From Saprospiraceae bacterium (GTDB lineage Bacteria; Bacteroidota; Bacteroidia; Chitinophagales; Saprospiraceae): 20,288 nt of DNA. The stretch spans positions 1 to 20,288 of the forward strand of contig JACMLK010000325.1 in assembly GCA_014379665.1 (NCBI GenBank), read 5' to 3'. A program made the translations under genes and the position numbers. The notes beneath the pieces were generated by a model, which ran no database searches, was not told the origin of the DNA, and saw only the letters and a program-made list of their open reading frames with translations. Shown one piece after another: positions 469-18,691 of the stretch (position 1 is its first letter; every line of letters begins with the position of its first letter).

Positions 469-469
469 T

Positions 470-898: not shown

Positions 899-902
899 AT
901 TT

Positions 903-1314: not shown

Positions 1315-1326
1315 TGACTAATTTAA

Positions 1327-1353
1327 GCACCATAAATGGAGCATTTATGGTGC
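1327..1353 (+). terminator. Perfect 12-bp hairpin, terminator or attenuator
   Basis: GCACCATAAATG (1327-1338) pairs perfectly with CATTTATGGTGC (1342-1353) around a GAG loop. It sits 12 nt after the lipoprotein stop and is followed by TGCTTTAAAC, a poor T-tract, so termination may be partial. The most upstream ATG of the adaptor frame (1336) lies inside the stem, an argument against that ATG as the start. It could also stabilise the 3' end of the lipoprotein message. Confidence 0.5.
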
Positions 1354-1398
1354 TGCTTTAAACATTCCATTATTTCGTTCCATAATAAATTTTATACC

Positions 1399-2916
1399 TT
1401 GAAACATATACCTATCATATTATCAATCATAACCATGCTCTTAGTCGGATGTGGTCCTGAAAAATCTTCGGAAGATGACCACGGTCATGACCATTCAGCT
1501 GGTGGACTTGAACCCGTTTCCTATACGCTATACTCGGATAGAACAGAAATCTTTGTTGAATTTAAACCCCTGGTTGTGGGTGAAATTTCAAAATTAGCAG
1601 CCCATTTTACCATTTTGGGTGAAAGGTTTATGCCACTGACATCAGGAACTGTTACGGTGAGTCTCATCAACGGAGACACTGGAATTGAAATGTCATCTGA
1701 AAGTCCAAGTTCACCGGGTATTTATAGATTGGCTTTAAAACCATCCAGAGACGGGATGGGTAAATTGATTTTTAAAATTGAAACAAAAGAATTTAAAGAT
1801 CAAATTACTATTGATAGTATCCCGATTTATGCTGACGCATCTGCCGCCATATCAGATCAGAAACCATCGACTACGGGTGACGATATTAGTTATCAGAAGG
1901 AACAGGCCTGGAAAGTAAATTTTGCCAATACGCCTGTAGTTAAACAACCATTCAGCAGTATCATCAAAACGAGTGGACAAATCATGCCTTCTCCTGGAGA
2001 TGAGTATGTAGTGAGTGCTCAGATAAGTGGTATCGTTACATTTGCAAATCAACATATTTTACAGGGAAGTGAAGTTGCTGCAGGTTCTCAACTTTTCACC
2101 CTGAAGAGTAATGAGGTCGTACAAAGTAGTTTGGGAACTGCAGTGCTGGAAGCAAAAAACGAACTGGCCAGTGCCCAAAAAAATTATACCCGAGCGACAG
2201 AGCTGGTCAAAGACAGGATCATATCAGATAAGGAGTTTTTAGCTGCTAAACTCAGATTTGAAAATGCACAAAATCAACTTTCAAGGGTTTCTGTTACAAA
2301 AAACTTTAATACCAACAGACAGAATATAACAGCTTCAATTTCCGGATATTTGAAAGATGTATTTGTAGAAAATGGACAATATGTAGAAGCCGGTCAGGCA
2401 TTGGCCACCATTTCAAAAAACAAAAAGCTAATATTACAAGCCAATGTGTCATTGAAGTATTTTGATAAAATCCCGCTGATTACATCTGCCAATTTTAAAC
2501 CGGCCAATAGTCAAATAACTTACAGCACAGATACCAATGGTGGTAAAAAGATAACTTATGGTAGGAGCATTTCGGAAAACGCTCCTTTTATCCCTATCCA
2601 TTTTGAGATAGAGAGTAAAAGTGACATTATCCCTGGTACAGTGGGCGAAGTATTCCTTAAATTATCATCCAAACAAAATGTACTCGTGATTCCTGCTTCG
2701 TCACTTATAGAAGAACAAGGATTATTTTTTGTGTTTGTACAAACAGGGGGCGAAAAATTTCAGAAACGGGAAGTTAGCGTAGGTGGTAATGATGGACAAA
2801 ATGTAAGTATTCTGGATGGTATCAAAGAAGGAGAAAGGGTGGTAAGTCAAGGCGCTTATCATATCAAATTGGTCATGGCATCAGGTGAACTTCCTGCGCA
2901 TGGACATGAGCATTAG
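1399..2916 (+). CDS. RND efflux periplasmic adaptor lipoprotein (CusB/CzcB type)
   Basis: This is the membrane-fusion subunit linking the RND pump to the outer-membrane channel. From TTG 1399 the 505-residue product begins MKHIPIILS and has lipobox LVGC with Cys18 lipidated. The frame can be read from ATG 1336, but that adds 21 non-hydrophobic residues before the signal peptide and starts inside a hairpin. Mature residues 27-32 (DDHGHDH) and the last five (HGHEH) are His-rich. Residues about 38-148 form an extra beta-rich domain, as often found ahead of Bacteroidota heavy-metal adaptors. The lipoyl/barrel-sandwich halves are at about 203-238 and 308-340, separated by a coiled-coil hairpin (about 245-298). 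Beta-barrel and membrane-proximal domains follow (IPASSLIEEQG, IKEGERVVSQG). The pump gene comes next but is separated by a probable insertion. The metal is not fixed by sequence; Cu, Ag, Zn, Co or Ni are possible. Confidence 0.88.
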   Translation: MKHIPIILSIITMLLVGCGPEKSSEDDHGHDHSAGGLEPVSYTLYSDRTEIFVEFKPLVVGEISKLAAHFTILGERFMPLTSGTVTVSLINGDTGIEMSSESPSSPGIYRLALKPSRDGMGKLIFKIETKEFKDQITIDSIPIYADASAAISDQKPSTTGDDISYQKEQAWKVNFANTPVVKQPFSSIIKTSGQIMPSPGDEYVVSAQISGIVTFANQHILQGSEVAAGSQLFTLKSNEVVQSSLGTAVLEAKNELASAQKNYTRATELVKDRIISDKEFLAAKLRFENAQNQLSRVSVTKNFNTNRQNITASISGYLKDVFVENGQYVEAGQALATISKNKKLILQANVSLKYFDKIPLITSANFKPANSQITYSTDTNGGKKITYGRSISENAPFIPIHFEIESKSDIIPGTVGEVFLKLSSKQNVLVIPASSLIEEQGLFFVFVQTGGEKFQKREVSVGGNDGQNVSILDGIKEGERVVSQGAYHIKLVMASGELPAHGHEH

Positions 2917-2934
2917 TCTAAATGTTGTATTATA

Positions 2935-2953
2935 AATGTTGAATTTTAAATTA
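2935..2953 (+). repeat. 19-bp direct repeat, left copy
   Basis: AATGTTGAATTTTAAATTA occurs here, 9 nt ahead of the four-helix-bundle gene, and again without mismatch at 3318-3336, just after that gene's stop. A related AATGTTGTATTATA precedes it (2921-2934). The two exact copies bracket the gene and suggest a cassette insertion. Confidence 0.7.
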
Positions 2954-2961
2954 TTTATAGA

Positions 2962-3315
2962 ATGAAAAAAGAAAATGTAATCCTTGAAAAGTCTTTCGAT
3001 TTTGCTCTTCAAATTATAGAACTCTACAAAAAACTTATTGCTGGAAAGGAATTTATTATATCCAAACAGTTGTTGCGCTGTGGCACAAGCATAGGAGCAA
3101 ACATCGAAGAAGCTGGTGCGGCAATTTCTAAACGAGATTTCATTGCTAAAATGTCTATTTCTTCAAAAGAGGCTAGAGAAACCAAGTATTGGCTTCGATT
3201 ATTGGAAAAAAGTAAACTAGCGAATATTGATGTTTCTGATGAGTTGAAAGAAGTAGAACATATAATCAATATCCTTACGTCAATTGTCAAGACGTCTCAA
3301 GCAAATGTTAAATGA
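2962..3315 (+). CDS. Four-helix-bundle protein (S23 / 23S rRNA intervening-sequence family)
   Basis: The 117-residue product matches the four-helix-bundle family first known from proteins encoded in 23S rRNA intervening sequences (also related to the Avd accessory protein of diversity-generating retroelements). Family hallmarks seen are the N-terminal FDFALQIIELYK helix, LRCGTSIGANIEEAGAA (about residues 39-55), SISSKEARETKYWLRLLE (about 66-83) and a final helix. Molecular function is unknown; the family forms oligomers and may bind nucleic acid. Length and start (ATG 2962) are typical. It has no evident link to metal efflux, yet lies between adaptor and pump, 45 nt after one and 70 nt before the other, and is bracketed by a perfect 19-bp repeat. 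I infer a mobile cassette that inserted into the efflux operon without disrupting either reading frame. Confidence 0.88.
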   Translation: MKKENVILEKSFDFALQIIELYKKLIAGKEFIISKQLLRCGTSIGANIEEAGAAISKRDFIAKMSISSKEARETKYWLRLLEKSKLANIDVSDELKEVEHIINILTSIVKTSQANVK

Positions 3316-3316
3316 T

Positions 3317-3359
3317 GAATGTTGAATTTTAAATTAATCAACATATCCATTCAACATTC
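3317..3359 (+). repeat. Right copy of 19-bp direct repeat plus inverted copy
   Basis: 3318-3336 repeats AATGTTGAATTTTAAATTA exactly. Its first part, GAATGTTGAAT (3317-3327), is also inverted as ATTCAACATTC at 3349-3359, giving an 11-bp stem with a 21-nt loop; a further near-copy of the A/T part in reverse runs to about 3381. This inverted-repeat block fills the gap before the GTG start of the pump gene and is the likely footprint of the inserted cassette. Confidence 0.65.
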
Positions 3360-3385
3360 AAAATCAAAAATTTAAAATTTCAAAA

Positions 3386-6300
3386 GTGTTAAATAAAATA
3401 ATAAATTTTGCCTTAGGTAACAGACTGCTGGTGGTGGTTGCATCAGTTTTGTTGCTTATATTCGGTACTTATGTCGCTACAAAAATGGAAGTGGATGTAT
3501 TTCCTGATCTTACTGCTCCCACTGTTGTAGTACTCACTGAATCTCATGGTATGGCTCCTGAAGAAGTAGAGAGACTGGTAACCTTTCCCATCGAAACATC
3601 CGTCAATGGTGCCACCAATGTAAGAAGGGTACGTAGCTCATCTACTGCAGGATTTTCTGTAGTATGGATAGAGTTTGACTGGAATACAGATATATTCAAA
3701 GCCAGGCAGATAGTGAATGAAAAACTCATATCGATCAGTTCTAAATTGCCTGATGGTACAGGAAATCCGACTATGGCGCCACAAGCAAGTATCATGGGGG
3801 AAATCATGCTAATTGGCATTTCATCTGACAGCACATCACAAATGGAATTGAGGACCATAGCAGACTGGACCATACGGCCACGCTTGCTCGCTACTGGTGG
3901 AGTGGCTCAGGTAGTTGTCATTGGCGGAGAATATAAACAATACCAAATTCTGGCATCACCACAAAAAATGGAGGCTTATCACGTGTCATTGTCTGAATTA
4001 ATAGCTGCGTGTAAATCTGCCAATGGTAATTCGTCCGGTGGATTCATCACTGAATACAGCAATGAGTATATTGTCAAAGGTATCGGAAGGACCAATGATC
4101 TGACTGAATTAGGCAAATCTATGATAAAAATGGTAGAAGGTTATCCTGTAAAGATTGAAGACGTAGCTGAAATTAAAATAGGCGCATCTCCCAAGATTGG
4201 TGACGGGTCGATCAACGGGAAACCGGCCGTTATCATGACGGTAATGAAACAACCTGCTACAAATACGCTGGTATTAACATCCAAAATAGAAGAAGCTATT
4301 AATGAAATACAAAAAAATGTCAAAAGCGATGTCAAAATTAATACAAAGATATTCAGGCAGGAAGATTTTATTACTTCTTCCATCAATAATATACAGAAAG
4401 TACTATTGGAAGGCACCGCTTTTGTAATTATCATTTTATTTCTGTTTCTGATGAACTGGCGTGCTACCGCTATTTCTTTGGTTGCCATACCCATCTCACT
4501 GATAGTTGCTATTCTTACACTAAAGTGGCTTGGATTGAGTATCAATACCATGAGTCTGGGTGGGATGGCCATTGCTATAGGTGACCTGGTGGATGATGCG
4601 ATTATAGATGTGGAAAATGTTTTTAAAAGACTCAAAGAAAACGCCCGAAAGCCTTTAAATGACCAAAGAAATAAGATTCAGGTCATCTTTGATGCGTCGT
4701 TTGAAATACGAACATCTATCATCAATGCTACATTTATCATCATCGTGGCTTTCTTACCGTTGTTTTTTCTTTCTGGAATGGAAGGAAAACTGCTTGCTCC
4801 ATTAGGGATTGCTTTTATAGTATCTTTGTTTGCATCGCTTATTGTGTCTATTACGCTTACGCCCGTATTGTGTAGTTATCTGCTGACGAGCGACAATATG
4901 CTGAACAAACAACATAAAGAAAGTTGGCTGGTTGAAAAGTTGCAGTATATATATACCAAAACTTTAACTCAGGTAATGCACTTTAAAAAAACTGCCATTG
5001 GCGTTAGCGTCATATTGTTTATAATTGCTATAATGGCCTTCAGCCAGTTAGGAAGAAGTTTTCTGCCGGAATTTAATGAAGGCTCATTGGTGATCAGCGC
5101 AGTAAGTCTTCCCGGCATATCTCTGGAAGAAAGTAATAAAATCGGGACCCAAATAGAACAAACATTACTCACGGTGCCGGAGATTAAGATAACCACTCGT
5201 CGTACCGGCCGGGCGGAGTTGGATGAACATGCTCAGGGAGTAAATTCTGCAGAAATTGACGCTCCGTTTACGTTGGCTGACAAAAGCAGGGAAGAATTTA
5301 TGTCAGATGTCAGGGGTAAGTTATCAGGTATAGGAGGCGTAAATCTAACCATTGGCCAACCTATTGGACATAGAATAGATCACATGCTATCAGGAACAAG
5401 GGCTAATATCGCTATTAAAATATTCGGTACAGACCTGAATAAGTTATTTACCTTGTCTAATCAGGTAAAAACCGAGATCCAAAACATAAATGGATTGGTG
5501 GACATAAGTGTGGAGCAACAAGTGGAAATCCCTCAATTGCAAATCAAAGCAAAAAGGGACTTGCTCAATCATTATGGTATTTCGATGGGTGATTTTAATG
5601 AGTTTGTAGATGTGGCTTTTGCAGGTGAAAAAGTATCTGAGATTTATGAATATGCAAAGACGTTTGATTTAATCCTGAAATTTGATGATGCCAATAGAGG
5701 CAAGATTGAAAATATTAAAAATACCTACATAGATACTCATAACGGACAAAAGATCCCCTTGCATTATGTCGCAGATGTAGTGAGTACCAGTGGCCCCAAT
5801 ACGATCAACAGAGAAAATGTACAACGTAAAACCGTAGTATCTGCCAATGTTGCAGGGAGAGATCAGAAAAGTGTGGTTGATGATATCCAAAGAATAGTTT
5901 CAGAAAAAATAAAACTGCCTGAAGGTTATCACATTGAATATGGTGGACAGTTTGAAGCAGAAGCACAAGCGTCCAAAACATTGATGGCCATGTCGTTATT
6001 GTCATTGATGATAATATTTCTTTTACTTTATCAGGAGTTTAAAAATGTCACCATTTCAGGTATTATACTGATCAATCTGCCATTGGCGTTAATAGGGGGA
6101 GTATTCAGTATTTACTGGACCAGTGGTATCCTAAGCATACCAGCGATAATTGGGTTTATCACCTTGTTTGGTGTAGCTACACGAAATGGTATTTTATTGG
6201 TCTCACATTATCAGACACTGCGAGATGAAGGTATGGGTCTTTATGATACCATCATACAAGGATCAAGAGACAGATTGAGTCCTATCCTGATGACAGCACT

Positions 6301-6469
6301 TACCGCCGGATTGGCATTGATCCCACTGGCGATGGGTGGCGATTTGCCCGGGAATGAGATCCAAAGTCCTATGGCAAAAGTTATCCTGGGTGGATTACTC
6401 ACATCGACAATGCTTAATATTTTTATAGTGCCGGTTGTCTATTATCTAACCAACAAAAAATTTCAATAG
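3386..6469 (+). CDS. Heavy-metal RND efflux pump, inner-membrane subunit (CusA/CzcA family)
   Basis: The 1027-residue product is a full-length HME-RND permease, a proton-driven trimer that expels metal cations. It starts at GTG 3386 with LNKIINFALGNRLLVVVASVL, the usual first membrane helix, followed by the porter-domain signature EVDVFPDLTAPTVVVLTE. A group of helices at about residues 337-500 contains the TM4 proton-relay region GDLVDDAIIDVEN (399-411), rich in Asp. A second large periplasmic domain (about 560-860) and the last helices (ending in FIVPVVYYLTNKK) follow. The TM4 motif differs from the CusA pattern (GAMVDAAIV) and the classical CzcA pattern, so substrate assignment by motif is unsafe. 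It is followed 2 nt later by a DUF3147 gene and then a TolC-like gene, giving adaptor-pump-(DUF3147)-channel order. The sequence before its start is AT-rich repeat left by the cassette. Confidence 0.93.
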   Translation: MLNKIINFALGNRLLVVVASVLLLIFGTYVATKMEVDVFPDLTAPTVVVLTESHGMAPEEVERLVTFPIETSVNGATNVRRVRSSSTAGFSVVWIEFDWNTDIFKARQIVNEKLISISSKLPDGTGNPTMAPQASIMGEIMLIGISSDSTSQMELRTIADWTIRPRLLATGGVAQVVVIGGEYKQYQILASPQKMEAYHVSLSELIAACKSANGNSSGGFITEYSNEYIVKGIGRTNDLTELGKSMIKMVEGYPVKIEDVAEIKIGASPKIGDGSINGKPAVIMTVMKQPATNTLVLTSKIEEAINEIQKNVKSDVKINTKIFRQEDFITSSINNIQKVLLEGTAFVIIILFLFLMNWRATAISLVAIPISLIVAILTLKWLGLSINTMSLGGMAIAIGDLVDDAIIDVENVFKRLKENARKPLNDQRNKIQVIFDASFEIRTSIINATFIIIVAFLPLFFLSGMEGKLLAPLGIAFIVSLFASLIVSITLTPVLCSYLLTSDNMLNKQHKESWLVEKLQYIYTKTLTQVMHFKKTAIGVSVILFIIAIMAFSQLGRSFLPEFNEGSLVISAVSLPGISLEESNKIGTQIEQTLLTVPEIKITTRRTGRAELDEHAQGVNSAEIDAPFTLADKSREEFMSDVRGKLSGIGGVNLTIGQPIGHRIDHMLSGTRANIAIKIFGTDLNKLFTLSNQVKTEIQNINGLVDISVEQQVEIPQLQIKAKRDLLNHYGISMGDFNEFVDVAFAGEKVSEIYEYAKTFDLILKFDDANRGKIENIKNTYIDTHNGQKIPLHYVADVVSTSGPNTINRENVQRKTVVSANVAGRDQKSVVDDIQRIVSEKIKLPEGYHIEYGGQFEAEAQASKTLMAMSLLSLMIIFLLLYQEFKNVTISGIILINLPLALIGGVFSIYWTSGILSIPAIIGFITLFGVATRNGILLVSHYQTLRDEGMGLYDTIIQGSRDRLSPILMTALTAGLALIPLAMGGDLPGNEIQSPMAKVILGGLLTSTMLNIFIVPVVYYLTNKKFQ

Positions 6470-6471
6470 TC

Positions 6472-6816
6472 ATGTACATTCTAATAAAAACCATTATCTC
6501 AGCCTTGCTAATCGTAGCGATTTCAGAAGCCGGAAAACGATTTACTACGTTTGGGGCAATTTTGGCATTGCTGCCATTAACATCTCTCCTTGCTTTTATC
6601 TGGTTGTATAGAGACACAAAAGACATTCAGAAGATCTCTTTGCTTTCGCATGAAATATTAATGATGATCATACCTTCTTTAGTATTCTTTATTGCTTTGC
6701 CTATACTATTAAAAAGTACAAAATTTTATCCGGCTATATTTATATCAGCATTTTTTACAGCCGTCGCATACTTTTTATGGATGCTGCTTTTAAAAAAAAT
6801 GGGATTCACTCAATAA
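6472..6816 (+). CDS. DUF3147 family membrane protein
   Basis: The 114-residue product has four hydrophobic segments (about residues 3-20, 25-45, 61-80 and 86-108) and matches the DUF3147 family by its features KTIISALLIVAISEAGKR, GAILALLPLTSLLAFIWLY and the RDTKD turn. The biochemical role of the family is not established; it is a small integral inner-membrane protein. Its start is 2 nt after the pump stop and its stop is 12 nt before the TolC-like gene, so all three should be translated from one message. This tight coupling suggests a role in, or at least co-expression with, the efflux complex. Small membrane partners of RND pumps are known in other systems (for example AcrZ with AcrB), but DUF3147 is unrelated in sequence, so this is only an analogy. 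Confidence 0.82.
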   Translation: MYILIKTIISALLIVAISEAGKRFTTFGAILALLPLTSLLAFIWLYRDTKDIQKISLLSHEILMMIIPSLVFFIALPILLKSTKFYPAIFISAFFTAVAYFLWMLLLKKMGFTQ

Positions 6817-6828
6817 AACCTTCAGATC

Positions 6829-8013
6829 ATGAATTTTAATAATCTTATCATCCTACTTTTCTCCATTACATTTTATCATCAAGGTAAAACACAAAATGGC
6901 ATAGAAGAGGTAATTGCAGCCATTAAAAAAAATAATAAACAAATACTGGCATATGCCCAATATAATGAATCCGAAAGACTAATGTATAAAACAGGTTTGA
7001 CACTGCCCAATCCTGCAGTGGGATTTGATTTTATGGCAGGGTCGCCTGCCACAGCTGGCAATCAGACAGACCTAACCATCACTCAAGCCTTCGATTTCCC
7101 TTCGGTGTATGGTAGAAAGAAAGAACTGTCTGATCTCTTGATAGCACAATTGCCCTATCAATCTACATCTATGAGACAACATATATTGATGGAGGCTCAA
7201 AAGACATGCAACGAAATCATCTACTTAAATAAAATGTTGGCTGAACTCACTAAGAGAAAGGTAAGTGTAGAAAAATTGAATCGGGATTTTTATAAAAGTA
7301 TGGAAAATGGTGATGGGAACATCCTTGATGTAAACAAAGCAAAACTCCAACTCGCAGAAGTGAATGCCATGTACCGGCATCATCAATCCCTGCTGCAGCA
7401 AGCATTATTAAAATTAACATCTTTGAATGGCGGATTGGAAATCAACTTTACAGACAGCACCTATGCGACTCAGTTAACAAGTACAGCAATGGATGAATTT
7501 GTAAAAGTTAGCTTAACTGATGATCCGGATATAAAATATATGGAATCAGCTAAAATGATAGCTCAACAGGAAATTGCGGTAGCAAAAGCTATGACTTTGC
7601 CGAAAATGGAAGTAGGGTATCATTATCAGGCTATATTGGGACAAAGATTTCAGGGAGGACATGTAGGTTTTTCTATTCCATTATGGGAAAACAGGCATCT
7701 GGTGAAGTCAAAACATTCAAAATGGATATATGCAGATATGCAACTCGAAGCACAACGCCATCAGCGATATCTTGAACTCCGGCAAATTTATGACAAGTAT
7801 GAAAGCACTAAGGAATTGCTTGCTGAATATACAACTGTTTTATCTTCAATAAATAGTTTGCCACTCCTGAATAAAGCACTGGAAATGGGTCAGTTCTCTA
7901 CAATAGAATATTTTATGGAAACGAGTTATTTTTACAACACGGTAGATAAATATCTGCTGATAGAGAAGGAATATCACGATATGGTTTTTGAGATGAATAA
8001 GTATAAGTTGTGA
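6829..8013 (+). CDS. TolC-family outer-membrane efflux protein (CusC/CzcC type)
   Basis: The 394-residue product is the outer-membrane channel of the RND system. Residues 1-21 form a signal peptide (hydrophobic NLIILLFSITF, then a short polar stretch). The rest has the long amphipathic alpha-helices and paired repeats of the outer-membrane efflux protein family: the N-terminal PNPAVGFDFMAGSP region (about residues 63-76), helices rich in Q, E, A and K at about 100-200, a second VGYHYQAILGQRF strand region (about 262-274), FSIPLWENRH (about 281-290), and helices to the end. It is a little shorter than typical TolC proteins, as usual for heavy-metal types. It lies 12 nt downstream of the DUF3147 gene and closes the efflux operon. 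It has no lipobox, unlike CusC of E. coli. Confidence 0.9.
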   Translation: MNFNNLIILLFSITFYHQGKTQNGIEEVIAAIKKNNKQILAYAQYNESERLMYKTGLTLPNPAVGFDFMAGSPATAGNQTDLTITQAFDFPSVYGRKKELSDLLIAQLPYQSTSMRQHILMEAQKTCNEIIYLNKMLAELTKRKVSVEKLNRDFYKSMENGDGNILDVNKAKLQLAEVNAMYRHHQSLLQQALLKLTSLNGGLEINFTDSTYATQLTSTAMDEFVKVSLTDDPDIKYMESAKMIAQQEIAVAKAMTLPKMEVGYHYQAILGQRFQGGHVGFSIPLWENRHLVKSKHSKWIYADMQLEAQRHQRYLELRQIYDKYESTKELLAEYTTVLSSINSLPLLNKALEMGQFSTIEYFMETSYFYNTVDKYLLIEKEYHDMVFEMNKYKL

Positions 8014-8021
8014 TGATTAGG

Positions 8022-8037
8022 TTACCAACCGTGGTAA
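8022..8037 (+). terminator. Small hairpin after the efflux operon
   Basis: TTACCA (8022-8027) pairs with TGGTAA (8032-8037) around ACCG, 9 nt after the TolC-like stop. There is no T-run, so it is a weak candidate for termination or 3'-end protection. The rest of the gap to 8214 shows no gene and no exact TAnnTTTG box. Confidence 0.25.
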
Positions 8038-8214
8038 GGCAATAGGTCTACGATAAAATATAAACTATAAGTATCAATTTTGAATGAAATGACAGTAGTT
8101 TAGTTCGATACAAAAACTTGGCAGTATATTTCAACACATTGGTAATCAAGTGTAATGTTTGTAATTTTATAGCGACCAGTGCAACAATTTGAATAAAAGT
8201 AAGTTTATAATTTT

Positions 8215-8664
8215 ATGTATAATAAGTCTTTGCACATATTATTGGCCTTAAACTTATTTATCTCGTCTTTTGGCTTGATGGCTTTTGAGCATATATGCAG
8301 TAAAAACGGTACTACTTTTTCTGTTTTTCTAAAACCTGATAGTTGCTGTTCCAAGAAAAAAGCCAAAAGTTGTTCTGCTACTGGTTGTACTAAACACAAA
8401 TCAAATCAGGGCGTGGCATTTAATAAGAAGCCATGCTGTGAAGATAAAACACACTATAAAAAACTTAATATAAGCGCTACTGAACAAACAAAGGTTGTCC
8501 TTTCAGAGATTCAATCAATTTTTTATTATCCTGTCGCCGAAACCATTTTAAGTGGAAATGATTTTATCAGCGAAAATGAAAAAACCTTAAGATCTTACTC
8601 ATATAAACCACCGCCACTCCATGTGGACAATTTAAGGGTGCTTTATCAATCGTTCCTTTGTTAG
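8215..8664 (+). CDS. HYC_CC_PP family Cys-rich exported protein
   Basis: The 149-residue product fits the small Bacteroidota family named for its conserved H-Y-C, C-C and P-P motifs. Here they read EHIC (His26-Cys28, Ile in place of Tyr), CC at 44-45 and again at 74-75, extra Cys at 53 and 58, PPP at 132-134, and a final Cys149. Residues 1-23 are hydrophobic (signal peptide or anchor), so the cysteines face the periplasm. The function is unproven; the Cys/His pattern and the usual genomic setting next to copper genes suggest soft-metal binding. It lies between the RND operon and an exported HMA-domain gene. Basic runs (KKKAKSC, HKSNQ) separate the Cys pairs. The family assignment rests on motif recognition. 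Confidence 0.75.
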   Translation: MYNKSLHILLALNLFISSFGLMAFEHICSKNGTTFSVFLKPDSCCSKKKAKSCSATGCTKHKSNQGVAFNKKPCCEDKTHYKKLNISATEQTKVVLSEIQSIFYYPVAETILSGNDFISENEKTLRSYSYKPPPLHVDNLRVLYQSFLC

Positions 8665-8859
8665 CTTTCCAAAACATCCTATTTCTGCAATAGGTTCTTA
8701 AGTTCATTATATGTATTGGTCTTCAACCTACATGTTAATGATCTTCCATAAGAAGCATCCATTGGTTTTGAAATATCTGCCTGTATTTGGGCAGACCGGA
8801 GTTTTTCCTTTTGAGATAAATTTCGTCAATACTAAGAATTTGGTGCTACTAATATTAAA

Positions 8860-8888
8860 TCACCTGGTGAGGTATAACCCAGAAGGGT
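8860..8888. promoter_or_regulatory. Adjacent inverted repeats, possible operator
   Basis: TCACCTGGTGA (8860-8870) is a perfect 5-1-5 palindrome, followed by ACCC-AGAA-GGGT (8877-8888). They lie 31-59 bp upstream of the HMA-domain gene. Position and symmetry fit a regulator site, but they match no copper-regulator operator I know. The rest of the 254-bp gap contains only a doubtful 74-codon open frame. Confidence 0.2.
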
Positions 8889-8918
8889 ACTATTTTTCAA
8901 ATTTCAAAATAATTCTTA

Positions 8919-9275
8919 ATGAAAACATTTATTAGAAGTATAGTGGTCATATTTATAGCATTATTCACCACTCATCTCAGTACAGCGCAGTCAATAAATT
9001 TAAAAATCGTAGATGTCAAAGTGTATGGTAACTGTGGCATGTGCAAAAAGACTATCGAAAAAGCGGGGAATGTAAAAGGCATCTCAAAGACAAAATGGGA
9101 TACAGAAACCGCGATGGCCAAAATAACCATAGATAGTACCAAAACAAGTGTAGATGAAGTATTGAAAAGAATCGCTGAAGTTGGATATGACAGTGATGCA
9201 TTCCGGGCACCTGATGCAGTGTATGAAAATCTACATGGCTGTTGTCAATATGAGAGACCGGCAAAAAAGATTTAA
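8919..9275 (+). CDS. Exported heavy-metal-associated (HMA) domain protein
   Basis: The 118-residue product carries a signal peptide (residues 1-23, ending STAQ) and one ferredoxin-like HMA domain (about 28-93). The metal site reads VYGNCGMCKKTIEKA, with Cys39 and Cys42 in a CxxC arrangement, preceded by N-C-G rather than the cytosolic CopZ pattern GMTC. The C-terminal extension has an extra Cys pair (Cys108-Cys109) not needed by the fold. It is likely a periplasmic Cu+ carrier, a compartment variant of CopZ. It follows the HYC_CC_PP gene and precedes the multicopper oxidase. The start ATG 8919 gives a normal signal peptide. The stretch 9276-9370 holds a 24-codon frame of uncertain meaning. 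Confidence 0.85.
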   Translation: MKTFIRSIVVIFIALFTTHLSTAQSINLKIVDVKVYGNCGMCKKTIEKAGNVKGISKTKWDTETAMAKITIDSTKTSVDEVLKRIAEVGYDSDAFRAPDAVYENLHGCCQYERPAKKI

Positions 9276-9370
9276 AATAACTATGAAACCATTTACAATC
9301 ATAGTACTCATGCGTCCGTACAGACCTAGAAGAAAAGATATCAGGATGGAAAATTAAAATTAGAAAATAA

Positions 9371-10822
9371 ATGACCATGAATATATTAAAATTCGGTGGG
9401 ATGATCACCTTAGTATCAGCTTTTACTTTTATGAGTTGTCATAAAATGGGCGAAGGTAATAAAGAAACTGCAAGAGCAGTTATTGAAAAATCCTTTACAT
9501 TTCCCATATCTACTCCAATGGTCATGGATGCAACGAATGCATCTTTTGCAGCAAAATCAAGCATTGCCAATATTGGTGGTCAATCTGTAAATACCCTTTC
9601 GTATGGTAATGGAGGCATATTAGGACCGACACTTAAGATAAATCAAGGTGATGTCATGAATCTGGTATTTACAAATGAGCTTTCAGAACCGACAAATATA
9701 CATTGGCATGGACTAGAGGCTCCTGCTGTGCAAGACGGATATCCCACAGACCTGACTCAGGCTGGTAATTCATATACCTATAATTTTCGTGTTGTGGACA
9801 GGCCAGGGACATATTGGTACCACCCTCATCCTGATATGGCTACTGCAAGCCAGGCTTACAGAGGATTGGCCGGTTTTTTTATAGTCACCTCTCCTGAAGA
9901 ACAAGCATTGAATTTACCTCAGGGTATTTATGATGTTCCTTTAGTAATTCAGGACAAAAGATTGGCAGGTGGACTGGTATATAATCCGGATACTGATGAC
10001 AAAACTATAGGATATTTTGGAGAATCAGTATTAGTTAATGGCACATCAGGAGCCGTTATGGATGTAGAAACACGTACCTACAGATTTCGATTATTGAATG
10101 GTTCAAATGCAAGAATGTACAATTTTGCCTTGTCTGACGGTTTGAAATTTAAGCTTATCGGGAGTGATGGCGGACTATTGGATGTTCCGGCAGATATATC
10201 AAAAATCTTACTTGCTCCTGGTGAAAGAGCTGATGTACTTATTAATTTTGGTAGTATGCCGGTAGGTACGGAATTGTTTATGGAGAGTGCATCGTTTAGC
10301 GGATCATCTTCCCAAGGCAGTCAAAGTTTTAAGATTATGAAATTTAAGATAATTAAAGATGTCATTGACAATTTTATTGTTCCGACCACATTGATGCCAG
10401 TGGTAAAAATATCTGAATCTTCTTCTCTTGCTTCGCGCAAATTTAACATAGGACATATGATGGCCCATGGAGGTATGGATGGAGTTATGCATCCAATAGA
10501 TGGAAAGACATTTGATGCCAATCGAAGAGATGAGGTAGTTAAGAGTGGTAGTGTAGAAGTCTGGGAGTTTGATAATACAGCAGGTACAGAAATTCACCCA
10601 ATGCATTTGCACGGTCTTCAGTTTCAGGTTTTGAAAAGGACAGGAGGAAGAGGCTTGATTCAACCATGGGAAAAAGGATGGAAAGATACAATATTGGCAT
10701 TTCCAGGTGAAAAGGTAAAAATCATCATACGATTTCCTGAAAACAAAGGAAAATTTGTATTCCATTGCCATAATCTGGAACACGAAGATGCAGGGATGAT
10801 GTTAAATTTTGAAATTCAATAA
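9371..10822 (+). CDS. Multicopper oxidase lipoprotein (CueO-like cuprous oxidase candidate)
   Basis: The 483-residue product has three cupredoxin domains. A lipobox-like FMSC puts a lipidated Cys at position 23. All four copper-binding motifs are intact: HWHG (His111, His113), WYHPH (His151, His153), HPMHLHG (His409, His412, His414) and HCHNLEHEDAGM (His465, Cys466, His467, His471, axial Met476). An internal run GHMMAHGGMDGVMH (361-374) is Met/His-rich, similar in place and character to the methionine-rich insert that gives CueO its Cu+ oxidase activity, though much shorter. The expected role is oxidation of toxic Cu+ to Cu2+ at the membrane surface. ATG 9371 and ATG 9377 are both possible starts. 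It is followed after 33 nt by the lipocalin-like gene. A laccase-like role on organic substrates cannot be excluded. Confidence 0.92.
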   Translation: MTMNILKFGGMITLVSAFTFMSCHKMGEGNKETARAVIEKSFTFPISTPMVMDATNASFAAKSSIANIGGQSVNTLSYGNGGILGPTLKINQGDVMNLVFTNELSEPTNIHWHGLEAPAVQDGYPTDLTQAGNSYTYNFRVVDRPGTYWYHPHPDMATASQAYRGLAGFFIVTSPEEQALNLPQGIYDVPLVIQDKRLAGGLVYNPDTDDKTIGYFGESVLVNGTSGAVMDVETRTYRFRLLNGSNARMYNFALSDGLKFKLIGSDGGLLDVPADISKILLAPGERADVLINFGSMPVGTELFMESASFSGSSSQGSQSFKIMKFKIIKDVIDNFIVPTTLMPVVKISESSSLASRKFNIGHMMAHGGMDGVMHPIDGKTFDANRRDEVVKSGSVEVWEFDNTAGTEIHPMHLHGLQFQVLKRTGGRGLIQPWEKGWKDTILAFPGEKVKIIIRFPENKGKFVFHCHNLEHEDAGMMLNFEIQ

Positions 10823-10855
10823 CCATATTTTTTAACATTCTAAATTTATTTAAAA

Positions 10856-11230
10856 ATGATTCATATAAAATCTTTAATGGCTATTCTGTTATTGGTAACT
10901 ATGACCTTTATTTCCTGTAAAAGTGATGAAGCCACAATTACTGAAAATCTAACTGCTGAGTGGAGTTCAACTGCTGTTAAAATTGATGGTGTCGCTTCTC
11001 CTGCTACTACTGTGATGTTTTTGCATTTGCTAAGCAGCAAACAGTATGAAATCACGACCAGCATCACACCATTTACCCACCCGAAAACAGGTGTATGGTC
11101 TGTCAATACTGGCGGTGACAAGTTGACTCTGGCGGGAAACGTCTGGACGATTCATCATCTTGAAGGTAATACGCTTCGTTTAGAAAATGTGGTTGATGGA
11201 AAAGAACTTGAAATAGATTTTGCCAAGTAA
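10856..11230 (+). CDS. Small lipocalin-like lipoprotein
   Basis: The 124-residue product has a lipoprotein signal peptide (lipobox FISC, Cys21). The mature part alternates beta-strands and ends in GNVWTIHHLEGNTLRLENVVDGKELEIDFA, the pattern of small lipocalin-like domains common in Bacteroidota; an early W (TAEWSS) and a later W (GVWSV) fit that fold. There are no clustered His or Cys in the mature part, so direct metal binding is not indicated, and the ligand is unknown. It lies 33 nt after the multicopper oxidase and is probably cotranscribed with it. The family call is moderate because these domains diverge widely. Confidence 0.65.
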   Translation: MIHIKSLMAILLLVTMTFISCKSDEATITENLTAEWSSTAVKIDGVASPATTVMFLHLLSSKQYEITTSITPFTHPKTGVWSVNTGGDKLTLAGNVWTIHHLEGNTLRLENVVDGKELEIDFAK

Positions 11231-11383: not shown

Positions 11384-13327
11384 ATGCTCCTAAAATATTT
11401 CTCAATTTGTCTCATGTTTTCAAGCAATATTTTGTTTGCTCAATATTCCATTAAAGGCAAGATCACTGAACAAACACAAACCATAAGTGGTGCCAGGATG
11501 ACGCTTTTTAACAGTGATACTACTTATTTTATGGAAAGACGCAGCGATAATATTGGCATGTTCTTTTTTTCAAATGTTCCTTCGGGAACTTATAAAATAG
11601 GTGTTGCCAAATCAGATTATAATTACAAAGAATCCAATATTATTATTAATGAAACCAATCAGGATATAAATTTTGAACTTGATCGCGAAACAGAAAAAGG
11701 AAAATGGGAAGTGATCATAAAATCGCCTGAACCACTGGGTGGAACGGACTTAGGAGTACTCATGCCTGATGGCAAAATATATTATTGCCATGACACCAAA
11801 GATCCATTTTATTTTGACCCCAAATCAAATGATACATTAAGTGTAATGGGTAGTGACAGTTTGCAAGGATGTGTGGGGCCCATACTTCTGGCAGACAGTA
11901 CGGTTTGGTTTTTTGGTGGCACATTGAAAGAAATTTATGGTCCCGGAACAAAAAAAGTAAAAAGGTTTGATGTCCGGACGTCCAAATGGAAAACCCAGCA
12001 AAATATGCTTGATTTCAGATGGTATCCAAGTGTTTCACCGCTATCAAATGGTCGAGTCATAATCCTTGGCGGTGGCGGACTCAACAATCCAATAAGAGTA
12101 AAAACATCTGAAATCTATGACCCAAAAAGTGGCATTTCAAAACCAACAGGTCAAATTGCCATTGGTAATGAAGTTTCTCCTATTGTACCGTTACTGAATG
12201 GTAAAACATTGATGACGCACCGTCCGCCACAATTGTTTGATCCAACTACAAATCAATGGGAATTGGCGGCTGATTTTGCCCAAAGCAATCGTATGAGCAA
12301 TGGAGATCATAGTGATCATGAATTGGTATTGATGCCGGACGGGGATGTATTTGCTTTTGGATATAAACCGTTTAACAACACTCCGGGTACATTTGTGGAA
12401 AAATATGACGTCGCGGCTAATAAATGGGAACTAAAAAGTAGTATTAATCCTATCAGATCAAGGGCAAAGGCAATAATACTGCCGGATAAAAAAATATTGA
12501 TAGCAGGAGGTCAGAAAGAAGATCAAAATGACATAAGCCCGGTAAACCAATGGGGATACATGAAACGATCCGATCTGTATCATCCAGAAACCGATACCTG
12601 GAGAAATCTTGCAGATTTGAATTATTTTAGGGAGTATCATTCCATAATGACTTTAGTCCCGGATGGAAGGGTTATAGCAGTGGGAGGCGAGGGTCAACCC
12701 GGTAATGAACCCACCCAAAGTATCATTGAAGCTTTTAAACCGCCTTATCTTTTCAGAGGAGTAAGACCTGAAATAATGAATCTAAATGCCAAAAGATTTT
12801 CAAAAGGTGATGAGTTAACATTTGAAATAACAAGGTCAGATTCCATAACCGGAGTACTGCTTATGGCTAATGCAGTAAACACTCATTTTATGAATAGCAG
12901 CAGTAATCGGTTTATCGAACTAGAATATGAACAAAATAATGGAAAGGTCACTGCTTTATTACCTTCGGATTCTCTTATATTATTTGATGGCTTTTATATG
13001 TTGTTTGCCATGGTTGATGATATACCATCAAAAGCTGAAATAATTGTAGTCAACAACCGGGCAGGGATCACATCAAATATTCAGGAATATGGAAAAGAAA
13101 ATGCGGTGATATATCCTAATCCGTGTAAAGACATTGTCCACTTCAAATCAGAAAACCCCATCATAGGAATCACGATCAGGGACATAAATGGGCATATAGT
13201 ATTGACAAAACGAGATAAAAACATTGAATCAGTAAATCTTGAGGGGTATTCATCCGGTATGTATTATGTTGAAATTATGAATGGTAACAGTGAAGTCACT
13301 GTTCAACAAATAAGTAAAATTAAATAG
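11384..13327 (+). CDS. T9SS-secreted galactose/glyoxal oxidase-like copper-radical oxidase (AA5 candidate)
   Basis: The 647-residue product has a signal peptide (1-19, ending FAQ), a carboxypeptidase-regulatory-like beta domain (about 21-100), a Kelch-type seven-bladed propeller (about 108-450), a galactose-oxidase C-terminal early-set domain (DUF1929, about 455-558) and a T9SS type A sorting domain (about 573-647, beginning VIYPNP). The residues expected for a copper-radical active site are all visible: Cys163 (QGCVGP), Tyr214 (FRWYPS), Tyr418-His419 (EYHS) and His501 (NTHFMN). They correspond to Cys228, Tyr272, Tyr495, His496 and His581 of galactose oxidase. The RWYPS motif and THFMN context resemble glyoxal oxidases more. 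Such enzymes oxidise aldehydes or alcohols with O2 and release H2O2. Its position in a copper cluster fits a copper cofactor. Substrate and activity are unproven. Confidence 0.85.
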   Translation: MLLKYFSICLMFSSNILFAQYSIKGKITEQTQTISGARMTLFNSDTTYFMERRSDNIGMFFFSNVPSGTYKIGVAKSDYNYKESNIIINETNQDINFELDRETEKGKWEVIIKSPEPLGGTDLGVLMPDGKIYYCHDTKDPFYFDPKSNDTLSVMGSDSLQGCVGPILLADSTVWFFGGTLKEIYGPGTKKVKRFDVRTSKWKTQQNMLDFRWYPSVSPLSNGRVIILGGGGLNNPIRVKTSEIYDPKSGISKPTGQIAIGNEVSPIVPLLNGKTLMTHRPPQLFDPTTNQWELAADFAQSNRMSNGDHSDHELVLMPDGDVFAFGYKPFNNTPGTFVEKYDVAANKWELKSSINPIRSRAKAIILPDKKILIAGGQKEDQNDISPVNQWGYMKRSDLYHPETDTWRNLADLNYFREYHSIMTLVPDGRVIAVGGEGQPGNEPTQSIIEAFKPPYLFRGVRPEIMNLNAKRFSKGDELTFEITRSDSITGVLLMANAVNTHFMNSSSNRFIELEYEQNNGKVTALLPSDSLILFDGFYMLFAMVDDIPSKAEIIVVNNRAGITSNIQEYGKENAVIYPNPCKDIVHFKSENPIIGITIRDINGHIVLTKRDKNIESVNLEGYSSGMYYVEIMNGNSEVTVQQISKIK

Positions 13328-13472: not shown

Positions 13473-13742
13473 ATGAAAAATCAAATTATTGCTCTCAGCG
13501 TAATTCTGGCCATCACTTTTGTTATGACATCGTGCGGAAGTAAAACCAGTACTCAGCAAACAGAACCATCCTCAAGTGAACAAATGGCTGTGGATACGAG
13601 CGGTTCTTTAAAAACTGTAGCCGCTCTCTATCAATGTCCTATGAAGTGTGAAGGAGAGAAGACCTATGACAAACCTGGAACTTGCCCTGTGTGCAAAATG
13701 GATCTTAAAGAAAAAGATAAGCATAAAGACCATAAGCACTAA
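13473..13742 (+). CDS. Lipoprotein with heavy-metal-binding domain (HMBD)
   Basis: The 89-residue product has a lipoprotein signal peptide (VMTSC, Cys21), a Ser/Thr/Gln-rich linker (22-50) and one HMBD/YHS-like module (53-78): YQCPM, CEGEKTYD, then GTCPVCKMDL, with Cys55, Cys59, Cys71 and Cys74. A charged His-rich tail ends in HKDHKH. The module is the same type as the two N-terminal ones of the CopA encoded at 15987-18470 and matches the first of them at 19 of 26 positions. It probably binds Cu+ at the periplasmic face and could receive copper exported by CopA. It lies 145 nt after the secreted oxidase gene and 89 nt before a DUF6122 gene; no clear promoter is visible. Confidence 0.85.
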   Translation: MKNQIIALSVILAITFVMTSCGSKTSTQQTEPSSSEQMAVDTSGSLKTVAALYQCPMKCEGEKTYDKPGTCPVCKMDLKEKDKHKDHKH

Positions 13743-15187: not shown

Positions 15188-15406
15188 ATGGCAAGTATAA
15201 TAGATGTAAAGACGTTGAGTAAGAGTGAGATAATCAATTTGGTCAAAGACTTATTGGAAAGTAAAATAATTACTCGCAATTTTTTGTCTGAATTAGCAGA
15301 CATTAGCGATTCTGAGGTTGTTGACACTTCCAGTATGGAGTATATCGAATCACTGATTGACAAACATTTTGAAGAGTATGATGAAGTTTTTCGTAAGTTG
15401 GCATGA
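15188..15406 (+). CDS. Putative antitoxin of a Fic/Doc toxin-antitoxin pair
   Basis: The 72-residue acidic product has no motif I can name with certainty. It is predicted mostly helical, with SKSEIINLVKDLLESK (about 11-26) and a C-terminal HFEEYDEVFRKLA (about 60-72) that would be suited to wrap around a toxin, as the Phd C-terminus does with Doc. Its stop codon overlaps the start of the Doc-like gene (ATGA at 15403-15406), the standard arrangement for antitoxin before toxin with translational coupling. No DNA-binding domain of Phd/AbrB type is obvious, so whether it autoregulates is unclear. The role is inferred from context and size. Confidence 0.7.
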   Translation: MASIIDVKTLSKSEIINLVKDLLESKIITRNFLSELADISDSEVVDTSSMEYIESLIDKHFEEYDEVFRKLA

Positions 15407-15810
15407 TTAGATATTTGACCAAGGACGAATTGATTTTTGTCAATAAACATACTGTTTCTAAGCATGGTGGACAATATATTTTACCACATAACTTCCTGAA
15501 TCAAGGGGCTTTAGACTATTTAATAGATATTATTTCTTCTGAAATGTTTGGTGAGCCGTTATATCCGGAATTTAGTGACAAAGCCGGTTTGTACATGTAT
15601 AATATCATTGCGAATCATTTATTCAGTGATGGGAATAAACGTACTGGACTGGAGGCTGCTATACTATTTTTGGATCTTAATGGTTACAGATTAAATAAAG
15701 GAACTCCTAAACAAGATGTCTACGAATTCACCATTAAAGTTGCTTCAGGTGAATCTAGTCTTGAAGAGTGTCAGGAATGGTTTGATAAAAACATGGTAAA
15801 GAGTATATAG
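15403..15810 (+). CDS. Fic/Doc family (death-on-curing) toxin
   Basis: The 135-residue product has the size of Doc and its central motif HLFSDGNKRTG (from His72; Asp76, Asn78, Lys79 and Arg80), matching the HxFx(D/N)xNKR signature of Fic/Doc proteins. Other family features are the N-terminal YLTKDELIFVNKHTVSKHGG and the following helix GLEAAILFLDLNGYRL. Doc phosphorylates elongation factor EF-Tu; other Fic enzymes AMPylate targets. The NKR form with Lys after Asn is that of Doc, where canonical AMPylating Fic has G at the corresponding place, so kinase action is the better guess. The gene overlaps its likely antitoxin by 4 nt. The pair is bracketed by imperfect direct repeats and probably moved in as a unit. 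Confidence 0.88.
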   Translation: MIRYLTKDELIFVNKHTVSKHGGQYILPHNFLNQGALDYLIDIISSEMFGEPLYPEFSDKAGLYMYNIIANHLFSDGNKRTGLEAAILFLDLNGYRLNKGTPKQDVYEFTIKVASGESSLEECQEWFDKNMVKSI

Positions 15811-15986: not shown

Positions 15987-18470
15987 TTAAGTCTTAAATG
16001 AACGTAATCGAAGTGCGTTAGCAATCACCGAAACAGAACTAAAACTCATGGCCAAAGCTGCGATCATTGGCGAAAGTAAGATGCCAAAAAAGGGAAATAA
16101 AACTCCCGCTGCCACCGGGATACCCAATACATTATAAAAGAAAGCAAAAAATAAATTTTGTTTGATATTCCGCATAACTGCATGGCTTAAATTTTTGGCC
16201 TTCACAATACCAAGTAAGTCTCCTTTTATCAAAGTGATTTTGGCACTTTCAATGGCTACATCAGTACCTGTGCCCATGGCTATACCAATATCTGCCTGTG
16301 CCAATGCCGGGGCATCATTTATACCGTCTCCCGCCATGGCTACCATTTTCCCTTCCGATTGCAAACGCTTGATTTCATTTAATTTGTCTTCGGGTAAACA
16401 GCCTGCTTTAAAGGAAGTTAAATTTAATTCATCTGCTACTGCTTTGGCCGTATTGATGTTGTCGCCTGTGAGCATGATGACTTCTACTCCTTGTCGGATC
16501 AATGCTGCAATAGCTTCTCTGCTTGATGGTTTGATCGCATCGGTAATGGCAACAAAACCAACAGCAAGGCCATCTACTGAAATATAGGAAACGGTCTTAC
16601 CCAATTTTTGCTCAGCAATAATTTCGGACTCCAAATCAGCAGGAACAGTTGCGTTCGCTTGTTCCATCAGACTTTTATTACCTAAGGCAACTTTTTTATT
16701 ACCGATAGATCCTGTTACTCCTTTTCCCGGGACGGATTCAAAATCTTCTACTTCTATTAATACAATAGATTTGGATTTTGCGAAATTTACGACTGCTTCA
16801 GCCAATGGATGCTCGCTGTATTGATTTAGCGAGGCCATCCATTGTAATAATTCATCCCCGTCATCATTCGAAGAAAATACTTTTTCTACCGATGGTTTTC
16901 CCTCTGTGATGGTTCCTGTTTTATCTGTTATTAACACATCCACCCTGTTCATATTTTCCAAAGCTTCGGCATTTTTAATCAAAATACCTGATTGAGCACC
17001 CTTACCCACACCCACCATGATTGACATTGGTGTAGCCAGGCCCAATGCGCAAGGGCAAGCAATGATTAATACGGCTACGGCATTTATAAACCCATAAACC
17101 AAAGCTGGTTCAGGGCCAAATTTTGCCCAGATTAAAAAAGTGATGACTGAAATAATAACCACCGCGGGTACAAAATATCCGGCAATACTATCAGCTAGTT
17201 TTTGAATGGGCGCTTTGGAACGACTGGCATCATTCACCATTTGTACAATTTGAGCAAGCAGGGTTTCAGAACCCACTTTTTCAGCTATCATCACAAATGA
17301 TTTGTTGCCGTTGATGGTGCCTGCCATCACTTGATCGTCTTTCTTTTTATCAACAGGGATAGGCTCACCAGTTATCATGGCTTCGTCAATACTACTAAAG
17401 CCATCGGTTATCCTACCGTCTACCGGAATTTTATCCCCGGGTTTCACTCTGAGTAAATCACCTTTTTTGATATCGTGAATGGAGATTACCTTATCATGTC
17501 CATTTAAAATCAGCGTGGCTTCGGTAGGAGCAAGTTTTAATAAAGCTTTGATGGCTCCACTGGTTTGGCTGTGGGCTTTTGCTTCGAGTAATTGCCCCAA
17601 CAAAACGAGTGTCAGAATAACAGTAGTTGCTTCAAAATACAGGTATACAGCACCTGAATCTGCTTTAAACTCATCGGGGAACATATCAGGATAAATAAGA
17701 CCGGCCAAACTAAAAAGGAATGCTACACCGGTCCCTAAGCCTATAAGGGTGAACATATTAAGATTCCAGGTGATGACAGATTTCCAGGCTCTGACAAAAA
17801 ACATCCAAGCGGCATAAAAAACAACCGGCAGTGAAAGCAATAATTGTACCCAGTTCCATTTTATAGGTTCCATTATTCGGAATAATGGATTATTGGGTAT
17901 CATTTCTGACATCGCAATGGCAAAAACAGGCACGGTAAATACCAATGCCACTTTCATTTTCCGTAATAAATCCAGGTACGTCTTTTGTTCAGCGTTTTCA
18001 TTAGCATCTAAGGGCACTAAATCCATTCCGCAAATAGGACAGGAGCCAAAAGTATCATTGATAATTTCCGGATGCATTGGGCAGGTATACTGTGGACCTG
18101 TGGATAATTGTGGCATTTGTACCAAATCCATTCCGCATACAGGACAATCACCGGCCTTGTCATAGGTCTTATCACCTTCACAATGCATCGGGCAATAAAA
18201 AACACCGTTGCCTTTTATTTCGGGTTTTTCTTTCAAATTTTCTGTTGGTTGAAGTTGACCATAATTGTAAATGCTATAACGGCCACCATCATTTTTTAAA
18301 GCTTGCTGAAATTTTTCCAATGGAATATGTGATTCCATTTCGATAGAGGCTTCTGCCTTTTCTAAATCAACATATGCCTTTGAAACCCCCTGAACTTTTG
18401 ACAAGGTTTCTTCTACGTGACCGCGGCACCCATTGCAAGTCATTCCGTTTATATGATAAGTATGTTTCAT
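15987..18470 (-). CDS. copA: Cu+-exporting P-type ATPase CopA with HMA and two HMBD modules
   Basis: From ATG 18470 the product has 827 residues and pumps Cu+ out of the cytoplasm using ATP. Order: one HMA domain (GMTCNGC, Cys12 and Cys15), HMBD module 1 (about 91-116) and HMBD module 2 (about 128-152), then eight membrane helices. The transport motif is CPC (Cys472, Cys474) within ACPCALGLATP. The phosphorylated Asp is Asp516 in DKTGTITEGKP. TGEP (actuator), HPLAEAVV (nucleotide domain), MLTGDN and MAGDGINDAPALAQADIG are all intact. The last helices carry YN and MSFSS-VSV, the Cu+ selectivity residues of P1B-1 pumps. The longest frame starts at 18506 but adds 12 residues before the HMA domain, so ATG 18470 is preferred. 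HMBD 1 closely resembles that of the lipoprotein at 13473-13742. The gene is divergent from the CorC-type gene; no exact TAnnTTTG box was found for it. Confidence 0.95.
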   Translation of the reverse strand: MKHTYHINGMTCNGCRGHVEETLSKVQGVSKAYVDLEKAEASIEMESHIPLEKFQQALKNDGGRYSIYNYGQLQPTENLKEKPEIKGNGVFYCPMHCEGDKTYDKAGDCPVCGMDLVQMPQLSTGPQYTCPMHPEIINDTFGSCPICGMDLVPLDANENAEQKTYLDLLRKMKVALVFTVPVFAIAMSEMIPNNPLFRIMEPIKWNWVQLLLSLPVVFYAAWMFFVRAWKSVITWNLNMFTLIGLGTGVAFLFSLAGLIYPDMFPDEFKADSGAVYLYFEATTVILTLVLLGQLLEAKAHSQTSGAIKALLKLAPTEATLILNGHDKVISIHDIKKGDLLRVKPGDKIPVDGRITDGFSSIDEAMITGEPIPVDKKKDDQVMAGTINGNKSFVMIAEKVGSETLLAQIVQMVNDASRSKAPIQKLADSIAGYFVPAVVIISVITFLIWAKFGPEPALVYGFINAVAVLIIACPCALGLATPMSIMVGVGKGAQSGILIKNAEALENMNRVDVLITDKTGTITEGKPSVEKVFSSNDDGDELLQWMASLNQYSEHPLAEAVVNFAKSKSIVLIEVEDFESVPGKGVTGSIGNKKVALGNKSLMEQANATVPADLESEIIAEQKLGKTVSYISVDGLAVGFVAITDAIKPSSREAIAALIRQGVEVIMLTGDNINTAKAVADELNLTSFKAGCLPEDKLNEIKRLQSEGKMVAMAGDGINDAPALAQADIGIAMGTGTDVAIESAKITLIKGDLLGIVKAKNLSHAVMRNIKQNLFFAFFYNVLGIPVAAGVLFPFFGILLSPMIAALAMSFSSVSVIANALRLRSFKT

Positions 18471-18691
18471 TAATTTATGTTTCCAATTAGTATAGAGAAA
18501 ATCCACGCTCGCAATTCCAGGACCTTAAGAAGGGTAATCCTAATTTAATCAACTACAATATCATACACTTTGTTGTTTTTTCAGACTGATGAAAATCGTT
18601 TTAATAGTAAATAATGCCAACGGGGATTTATTTGTCCAAATTGTTTAACACTCCTGGCCTTTAATTTAGGTTAATATTTGATTCGAATGAC

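Follow-up and report, generated by a model that had tools for sequence, protein, structure and literature searches.

In copper radical oxidases (CROs) of family AA5, a thioether arises with copper and O2. An aldehyde hydrate or an alcohol then gives up two electrons to the Cu(II)-radical form of the enzyme, and O2 is reduced to H2O2. Few bacterial CROs appear in the literature covered. The initial annotation of the DNA studied here, a stretch of 20,288 nucleotides from a Saprospiraceae bacterium (contig JACMLK010000325.1, hereafter the window), named GlxA of Streptomyces as a bacterial case; GlxA is a studied one, but it has company in a Pseudoarthrobacter galactose oxidase of solved structure and in a Burkholderia AA5 alcohol oxidase cited in an excerpt of PMC11267884. 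Passages of PMC4736821 describe GlxA maturation in Streptomyces at low copper as requiring DtpA, a peroxidase that consumes the H2O2 produced by GlxA, together with the chaperones Sco and ECuC. As for the second-sphere tryptophan of these enzymes, an excerpt of PMC13094651 places that of a Fusarium aldehyde oxidase (W509) beside the cofactor tyrosine Y510, gives GlxA W288 the same second-shell place and flipped orientation, and draws W290 of galactose oxidase from another region.

One gene of the window encodes a protein, here called the CRO, that has the AA5 architecture and active-site residues, a sorting tail for the type IX secretion system (T9SS) and a neighbourhood of copper genes. In our view it is probably a copper radical oxidase of aldehyde-oxidase/GlxA type that leaves the cell through the T9SS and whose gene is an accessory of copper-handling blocks. 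This reading draws on the sequence, the predicted fold, residue conservation, the export tail, the T9SS parts of the genome and the copper neighbourhood. Our searches of open-licence papers found no description of a T9SS-tailed CRO from a copper island, and it is a new form of a known kind of enzyme. Its subfamily adds to the bacterial CROs a Bacteroidota branch in which a predicted aldehyde-type site and an export tail come with recurrent proximity to copper genes.

Predicted active site, fold and export of the oxidase

The initial annotation had assigned C163, Y214, Y418, H419 and H501 to the copper site, and all five are confirmed at these positions. Each is invariant in all 121 rows of an alignment made up of the query, P0002 (its own copy in the database) and 119 further sequences reaching down to about 49% identity (the best of 948 found), as is the tryptophan W213 next to Y214. 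All six residues are also identical in 23 of 23 proteins from the related loci described below, the window included, which diverge down to about 41% identity. Tyr418 and His419 align with the NYHS motif of GlxA and His501 with its STH, while profile alignments set Cys163 on the cysteine of the MFCPG/FFCGG motif of other AA5 proteins. The catalytic module holds two cysteines only, C135 and C163. C135 is nearly invariant as well (120/121, the remaining row being a gap), and we retain it as a minor alternative for the cross-link; C163 is preferred for its place one blade ahead of Y214 and for its alignment to the cysteine of other AA5 proteins.

A sequence search of the PDB aligned W213 with the GlxA tryptophan that is replaced by alanine in the W288A chains 5LQI and 5LXZ, and W213 therefore occupies the W288 position. 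Opposite the GGGGLNN stretch of the CRO, a galactose-oxidase-type relative has GGSWSG, whose tryptophan we take to mark the W290 position of galactose oxidase; the CRO has no aromatic residue there. Because its second-sphere tryptophan, W213, adjoins the cofactor tyrosine, the site is, as judged from sequence, of the aldehyde-oxidase/GlxA arrangement and not galactose-oxidase-like, and the galactose-oxidase reading of the active site was dropped. Thus the match to galactose/glyoxal oxidases reported earlier holds for the full residue set but not for the galactose oxidase type, and the likeliest activity is that of an aldehyde (glyoxal)-type oxidase. The subfamily also supplies bacterial sequences with a tryptophan adjoining the cofactor tyrosine for comparison with fungal aldehyde oxidases.

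At the level of the fold, the CRO has the kelch propeller and C-terminal E-set of the AA5 architecture. The initial annotation had proposed a structural comparison, and by predicted fold GlxA and other AA5 oxidases are the top matches among solved structures, the Pseudoarthrobacter galactose oxidase among them; GlxA is also the best single-sequence match in the PDB, and the predicted global fold agrees with a colinear alignment to AA5 structures. GlxA (Streptomyces lividans/coelicolor) shares the Trp-Tyr adjacency and 26% identity over the structural alignment; the Cys-Tyr spacing of the CRO is 51 residues, and in excerpts the GlxA residues are numbered C121 (PMC4736821) and W288 (PMC13094651). 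The aldehyde (glyoxal) oxidase of Fusarium graminearum, FgrAldOx (AA5_1, 9N3U), differs in being fungal and carrying a WSC domain, is 21% identical and has a spacing of 60 residues (450 to 510), near that of the CRO. Galactose oxidase and the AA5_2 alcohol oxidases (1GOF, 6RYV, 5C92), together with the bacterial galactose oxidase 9G43, are 21-25% identical, and the AA5_2 enzymes place their second-sphere aromatic residue elsewhere than W213. No GlxA reference sequence was obtained from 14 control genomes. The DHSDHE loop, where D308, H309 and D311 are invariant across the alignment, has no counterpart in the aligned GlxA-like protein of locus L012 and may form a metal or substrate site particular to the subfamily.

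Within Bacteroidota, two giant proteins from another family (locus L056, genome G1262) resemble the CRO in having an AA5 module and, by eye, a T9SS-like tail; unlike it, they show the galactose-oxidase-type tryptophan, long extra C-terminal parts and no copper markers nearby. They may represent a second T9SS AA5 line in the phylum. Their open reading frames (ORFs), 33-4904 (-) and 5075-11173 (-), adjoin each other and encode 1623 and 2032 aa.

Kelch repeats came up in the Pfam domain scan of the CRO. The galactose-oxidase-like early set domain scored 53.2 bits (cut-off 25) and the T9SS tail 42.2 bits (cut-off 27), with the NCBIfam tail model likewise over its cut-off; the N-terminal carboxypeptidase-regulatory-like match fell slightly short (30.6 bits against 32.3). 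The source genome, 65% complete, carries the T9SS translocon protein SprA in two pieces (1504.5 and 505.3 bits) and the motor protein GldM (245.6 bits). With its sorting domain and these genes, the CRO is a predicted T9SS type A cargo, as the initial annotation had it, and the tail sets it apart from GlxA. The fusion of an N-terminal regulatory-like domain to a T9SS tail had been called unusual, which it is not: among the closest relatives, the best 120 of 948 found, a hand count gave PF18962 (the tail) in 109 and PF13620 or PF13715 (N-terminal CarboxypepD_reg) in 112. Since most have both domains, this is the ordinary architecture of the closest relatives.

Copper genes at related loci and probable transfer of the block

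The CRO gene sits inside a copper gene cluster, as first annotated, with an efflux pump, a multicopper oxidase, a CopZ-like protein and a copper-translocating ATPase around it (Table 1). This is a further departure from GlxA, whose gene lies in a putative operon with cslA according to an excerpt of PMC3543389. We compared loci of CRO relatives with 20 controls, 20-kb stretches drawn from seven relative-carrying contigs, scoring four markers (multicopper oxidase, Cu-ATPase, CusA-type pump and CopZ-like protein) at fixed tblastn thresholds. The 23 loci sampled became 22 on removal of L056 (24-28% identical, galactose-oxidase type, marker-free); the window itself is outside this count, L015 and L034 were treated by coordinates as copies of L009 and L010 and not counted again, and L012, L013 and L014 (23-26% identical, from other phyla) were never in the set. 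At least one marker lies near 17 of the 22 loci (17/23 with L056) against 3/20 controls, and multicopper oxidase alone near 15/22 against 0/20. Two of the three controls with a marker (L068, L069) are on a G373 contig that also bears an oxidase gene. Counted by genus label, with L011 merged into L010 (93% identical), a marker is present in 9 of 12 genera besides that of the window. The copper setting, which had been thought unusual, is thus real but no one-off, and this recurrent neighbourhood, rather than the export architecture, is the real point of interest.

Clustering of all ORFs from 23 loci, now including the window, gave the same picture. After the oxidase family itself (23/23) came multicopper oxidases (16), a mixed group of metal-binding and adaptor proteins (15), P-type ATPases (14) and CusA-type pumps (10), against 0, 3, 3 and 2 of the 20 controls for the last four groups. 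A protein that combines a choice-of-anchor V domain with a T9SS tail and a CTGCHGG motif also recurs near the oxidase (L055 12609-13508, similar in L030, L032, L046 and L053); its cluster is found at 9/23 loci and 0/20 controls, some members being joined by their T9SS tails only.

The CRO gene is rare. At E 1e-30 it was found in 17 of 398 family genomes drawn (16 of 275 good ones), in 9 of 298 order genomes and in 1 of 395 phylum genomes, the source genome being counted in each and the only one in the last; at E 1e-20 it was found in 4 of 395 class genomes, again including its own, with the distant L056 as another. The draws share genomes, and scoring was confined to the top few candidates of each genome. 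All nine other listed genomes of the same genus lack the gene, and copies in two other genera (G120 and G804) are 85% and 83% identical to the CRO of the window. In L009, whose coordinates identify it with the location of the G120 copy, the multicopper oxidase and CopZ are 87% and 86% identical to those of the window. The core gene gldM, by comparison, is 49% and 60% identical to G120 and G804 and 67-77% identical to five genomes of its own genus. Between some genera the CRO block thus shows far higher identity than a core gene does, which suggests, as the simplest reading, that it was transferred; in three other genera the CRO and GldM identities (60, 55 and 50 against 52, 46 and 41) differ by 8-9 points only.

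Several observations weigh against the reading as a copper-linked, aldehyde-type AA5 oxidase. The GlxA equivalog model NF052501 scores 125.6 bits on the CRO, far from its curated cut-off of 800, and Pfam Glyoxal_oxid_N scores 32.2 bits, just below its cut-off of 37.5. In the predicted model, loop 304-308 has a pLDDT (predicted local distance difference test) below 50. Fisher values for the copper linkage are 6e-5 for any marker and 2e-6 for multicopper oxidase alone, but the loci are related to each other and several are on short contigs, and the former value overstates the case because of that relatedness. None of the four markers was found at 5 of the 22 loci (L026, L048, L052, L054 and L055), the contigs of L048, L052 and L054 measuring 8.6, 6.2 and 11.0 kb, and the same kind of search found none near the distant AA5 relatives L056 (Bacteroidota) and L012-L014 (other phyla).

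Proposed mechanism and alternatives

From these observations we infer the following course for an exported, aldehyde-type CRO. The signal peptide would bring the protein to the periplasm, where copper would be loaded onto it, possibly from the neighbouring heavy-metal-associated (HMA) protein, and the Cys163-Tyr214 thioether would form with Cu and O2. The T9SS would then carry the enzyme outside, where the tail would be cleaved off. Its substrates there would be small aldehydes, in hydrate form, or primary alcohols, from which two electrons would pass to O2, yielding a carboxylate or an aldehyde together with H2O2. Its gene would be an accessory member of copper-handling blocks, probably moving between genera, and the linkage may exist because the enzyme requires copper or pays off where copper is plentiful. 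Three relatives (L009, L010, L011) encode, just upstream of the oxidase, a second HMA protein along with a thioredoxin-like one; these, and the HMA proteins at large, could serve the CRO as chaperones, and we count the dependence of GlxA on copper chaperones as a likeness. If functional, the copper tie would link copper homeostasis to extracellular oxidation and H2O2.

T9SS cargo of Bacteroidota is often polysaccharide-active, and the CRO might accordingly be a galactose-oxidase-like carbohydrate or alcohol oxidase that acts on surrounding polysaccharides, with copper genes nearby for its metal need or through island accumulation. The L056 giants, tailed and with the galactose-oxidase-type tryptophan away from any copper marker, give this some substance. 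It is nevertheless unlikely for the CRO itself, given the Gly/Leu stretch where galactose oxidase has its tryptophan, W213 at the aldehyde-oxidase position, a Pfam scan that found no sugar-binding module in the protein, and copper genes at most of the related loci.

Somewhat less likely still is a role in copper defence, in which oxidation at the surface would yield copper-binding acids or clear reactive aldehydes that worsen copper stress. The recurrent, apparently transferred copper neighbourhood and the export signals fit such a role; the loci without markers do not, and H2O2 released beside copper ions would in principle be harmful.

A third proposal, which we think very improbable, has the CRO supply the H2O2 with which neighbouring di-haem enzymes of the MbnH type would modify MbnP copper proteins; the MbnH/MbnP pair is described in methanobactin genome mining (PMC3621798, in excerpt). 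MbnH relatives lie within the fetched stretch at 5/22 loci and MbnP at 4/22 (both in L009, L011, L046 and L050, MbnH alone past threshold in L048), with more farther along the same contig; the MbnP of L009 has a T9SS tail above the NCBIfam cut-off (26.6 of 27 bits in Pfam), and the use of GlxA-made H2O2 by DtpA in Streptomyces (PMC4736821, in part) offers a parallel. However, each of the 100 family genomes sampled contains MbnH-family matches, most of them more than one, the pair also occurs in 1/20 controls (L066), and the window has no pair, its incomplete genome holding one partial match elsewhere. The L009 proteins also miss the NCBIfam MbnH and MbnP cut-offs, though they reach those of Pfam MbnP and CCP_MauG. 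As MbnH-type matches are so common in the family, the pair may be just one more copper gene, which weakens it as an explanation of the copper linkage. An extracellular maturation relay, in which T9SS-exported MbnP would acquire modified-tryptophan copper sites through neighbouring MbnH acting with CRO-made H2O2, is just as improbable; were it true, abundant copper would switch on its own surface capture. At positions 823-3902 of L009, in the same cluster as its oxidase, a T9SS-tailed MbnP relative precedes two di-haem genes of the MbnH type.

As binding is a common role in large kelch families, the CRO could also be an inactive member retained for adhesion or copper binding. This is hard to reconcile with ligand, cross-link and second-sphere residues that all stay invariant over such divergence, and we give it very little credence.

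Other features of the window

Table 1. Features of the window and of the CRO; scores are in bits, and residue numbers refer to the CRO protein.
Feature	Position	Strand	Remarks
Resistance-nodulation-division (RND) efflux adaptor (CusB/CzcB type)	1336..2916	+	TIGR01730 130.3, cut-off 94.9
23S ribosomal RNA-intervening-sequence-type four-helix-bundle gene	2962-3315	+	between RND adaptor and CusA pump
CusA/CzcA-family heavy metal RND pump	3386..6469	+	TIGR00914 805.3, cut-off 701.45
TolC-type outer membrane efflux protein	6829..8013	+	PF02321 64.6
HYC_CC_PP family protein	8215..8664	+	NF047658 33.6, cut-off 28
CopZ-like HMA protein	8919..9275	+	signal peptide by eye; HMA, MerP and CopZ models all below cut-offs
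CueO-like multicopper oxidase	9371..10822	+	Pfam Cu-oxidase domains above cut-off; NF008205 298.8, below cut-off 525
Small lipoprotein-like protein	10856..11230	+	between multicopper oxidase and CRO
CRO ORF	11384..13327	+	647 aa, without internal stop
CRO signal peptide	residues about 1-20		by eye
CRO N-terminal beta-sandwich	residues about 22-99
CRO kelch propeller	residues about 102-458
CRO GO-like E-set	residues 461-555
CRO T9SS type A tail	residues 576-643
Cys163 codon	11870..11872	+	predicted cross-link cysteine
Trp213-Tyr214 codons	12020..12025	+	second-sphere Trp and cofactor Tyr
DHSDHE loop, residues 308-313	12305..12322	+
Tyr418-His419 codons	12635..12640	+	predicted second Tyr and first His copper ligand
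His501 codon	12884..12886	+	predicted second His copper ligand
Small lipoprotein-like protein with heavy-metal-binding domain (HMBD)	13473..13742	+	PF19335 44, cut-off 23.6
Copper-translocating P-type ATPase	15987..18506	-	TIGR01511 586.5, cut-off 397; CPC motif, HMA and HMBD domains

The lipoprotein-like protein just upstream of the CRO has no Pfam or NCBIfam match, and relatives of it occur near 6 of the 22 related CRO loci. Scans for promoters (72 against a shuffled mean of 62.3, sd 7.1) and terminators (11 against 8.7, sd 3.2) were put to no use. Between the HMBD lipoprotein and the ATPase, a 72-aa ORF (15188-15406, +) overlaps by 4 bases a Fic/Doc-family ORF (15403-15810, +) that contains HLFSDGNKRTG, and the couple looks like a Doc-type toxin-antitoxin pair with an unfamiliar small partner. 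Among five flanking proteins submitted to PADLOC, the Fic ORF alone drew matches, six in number and all to candidate models (best 6.4e-13).
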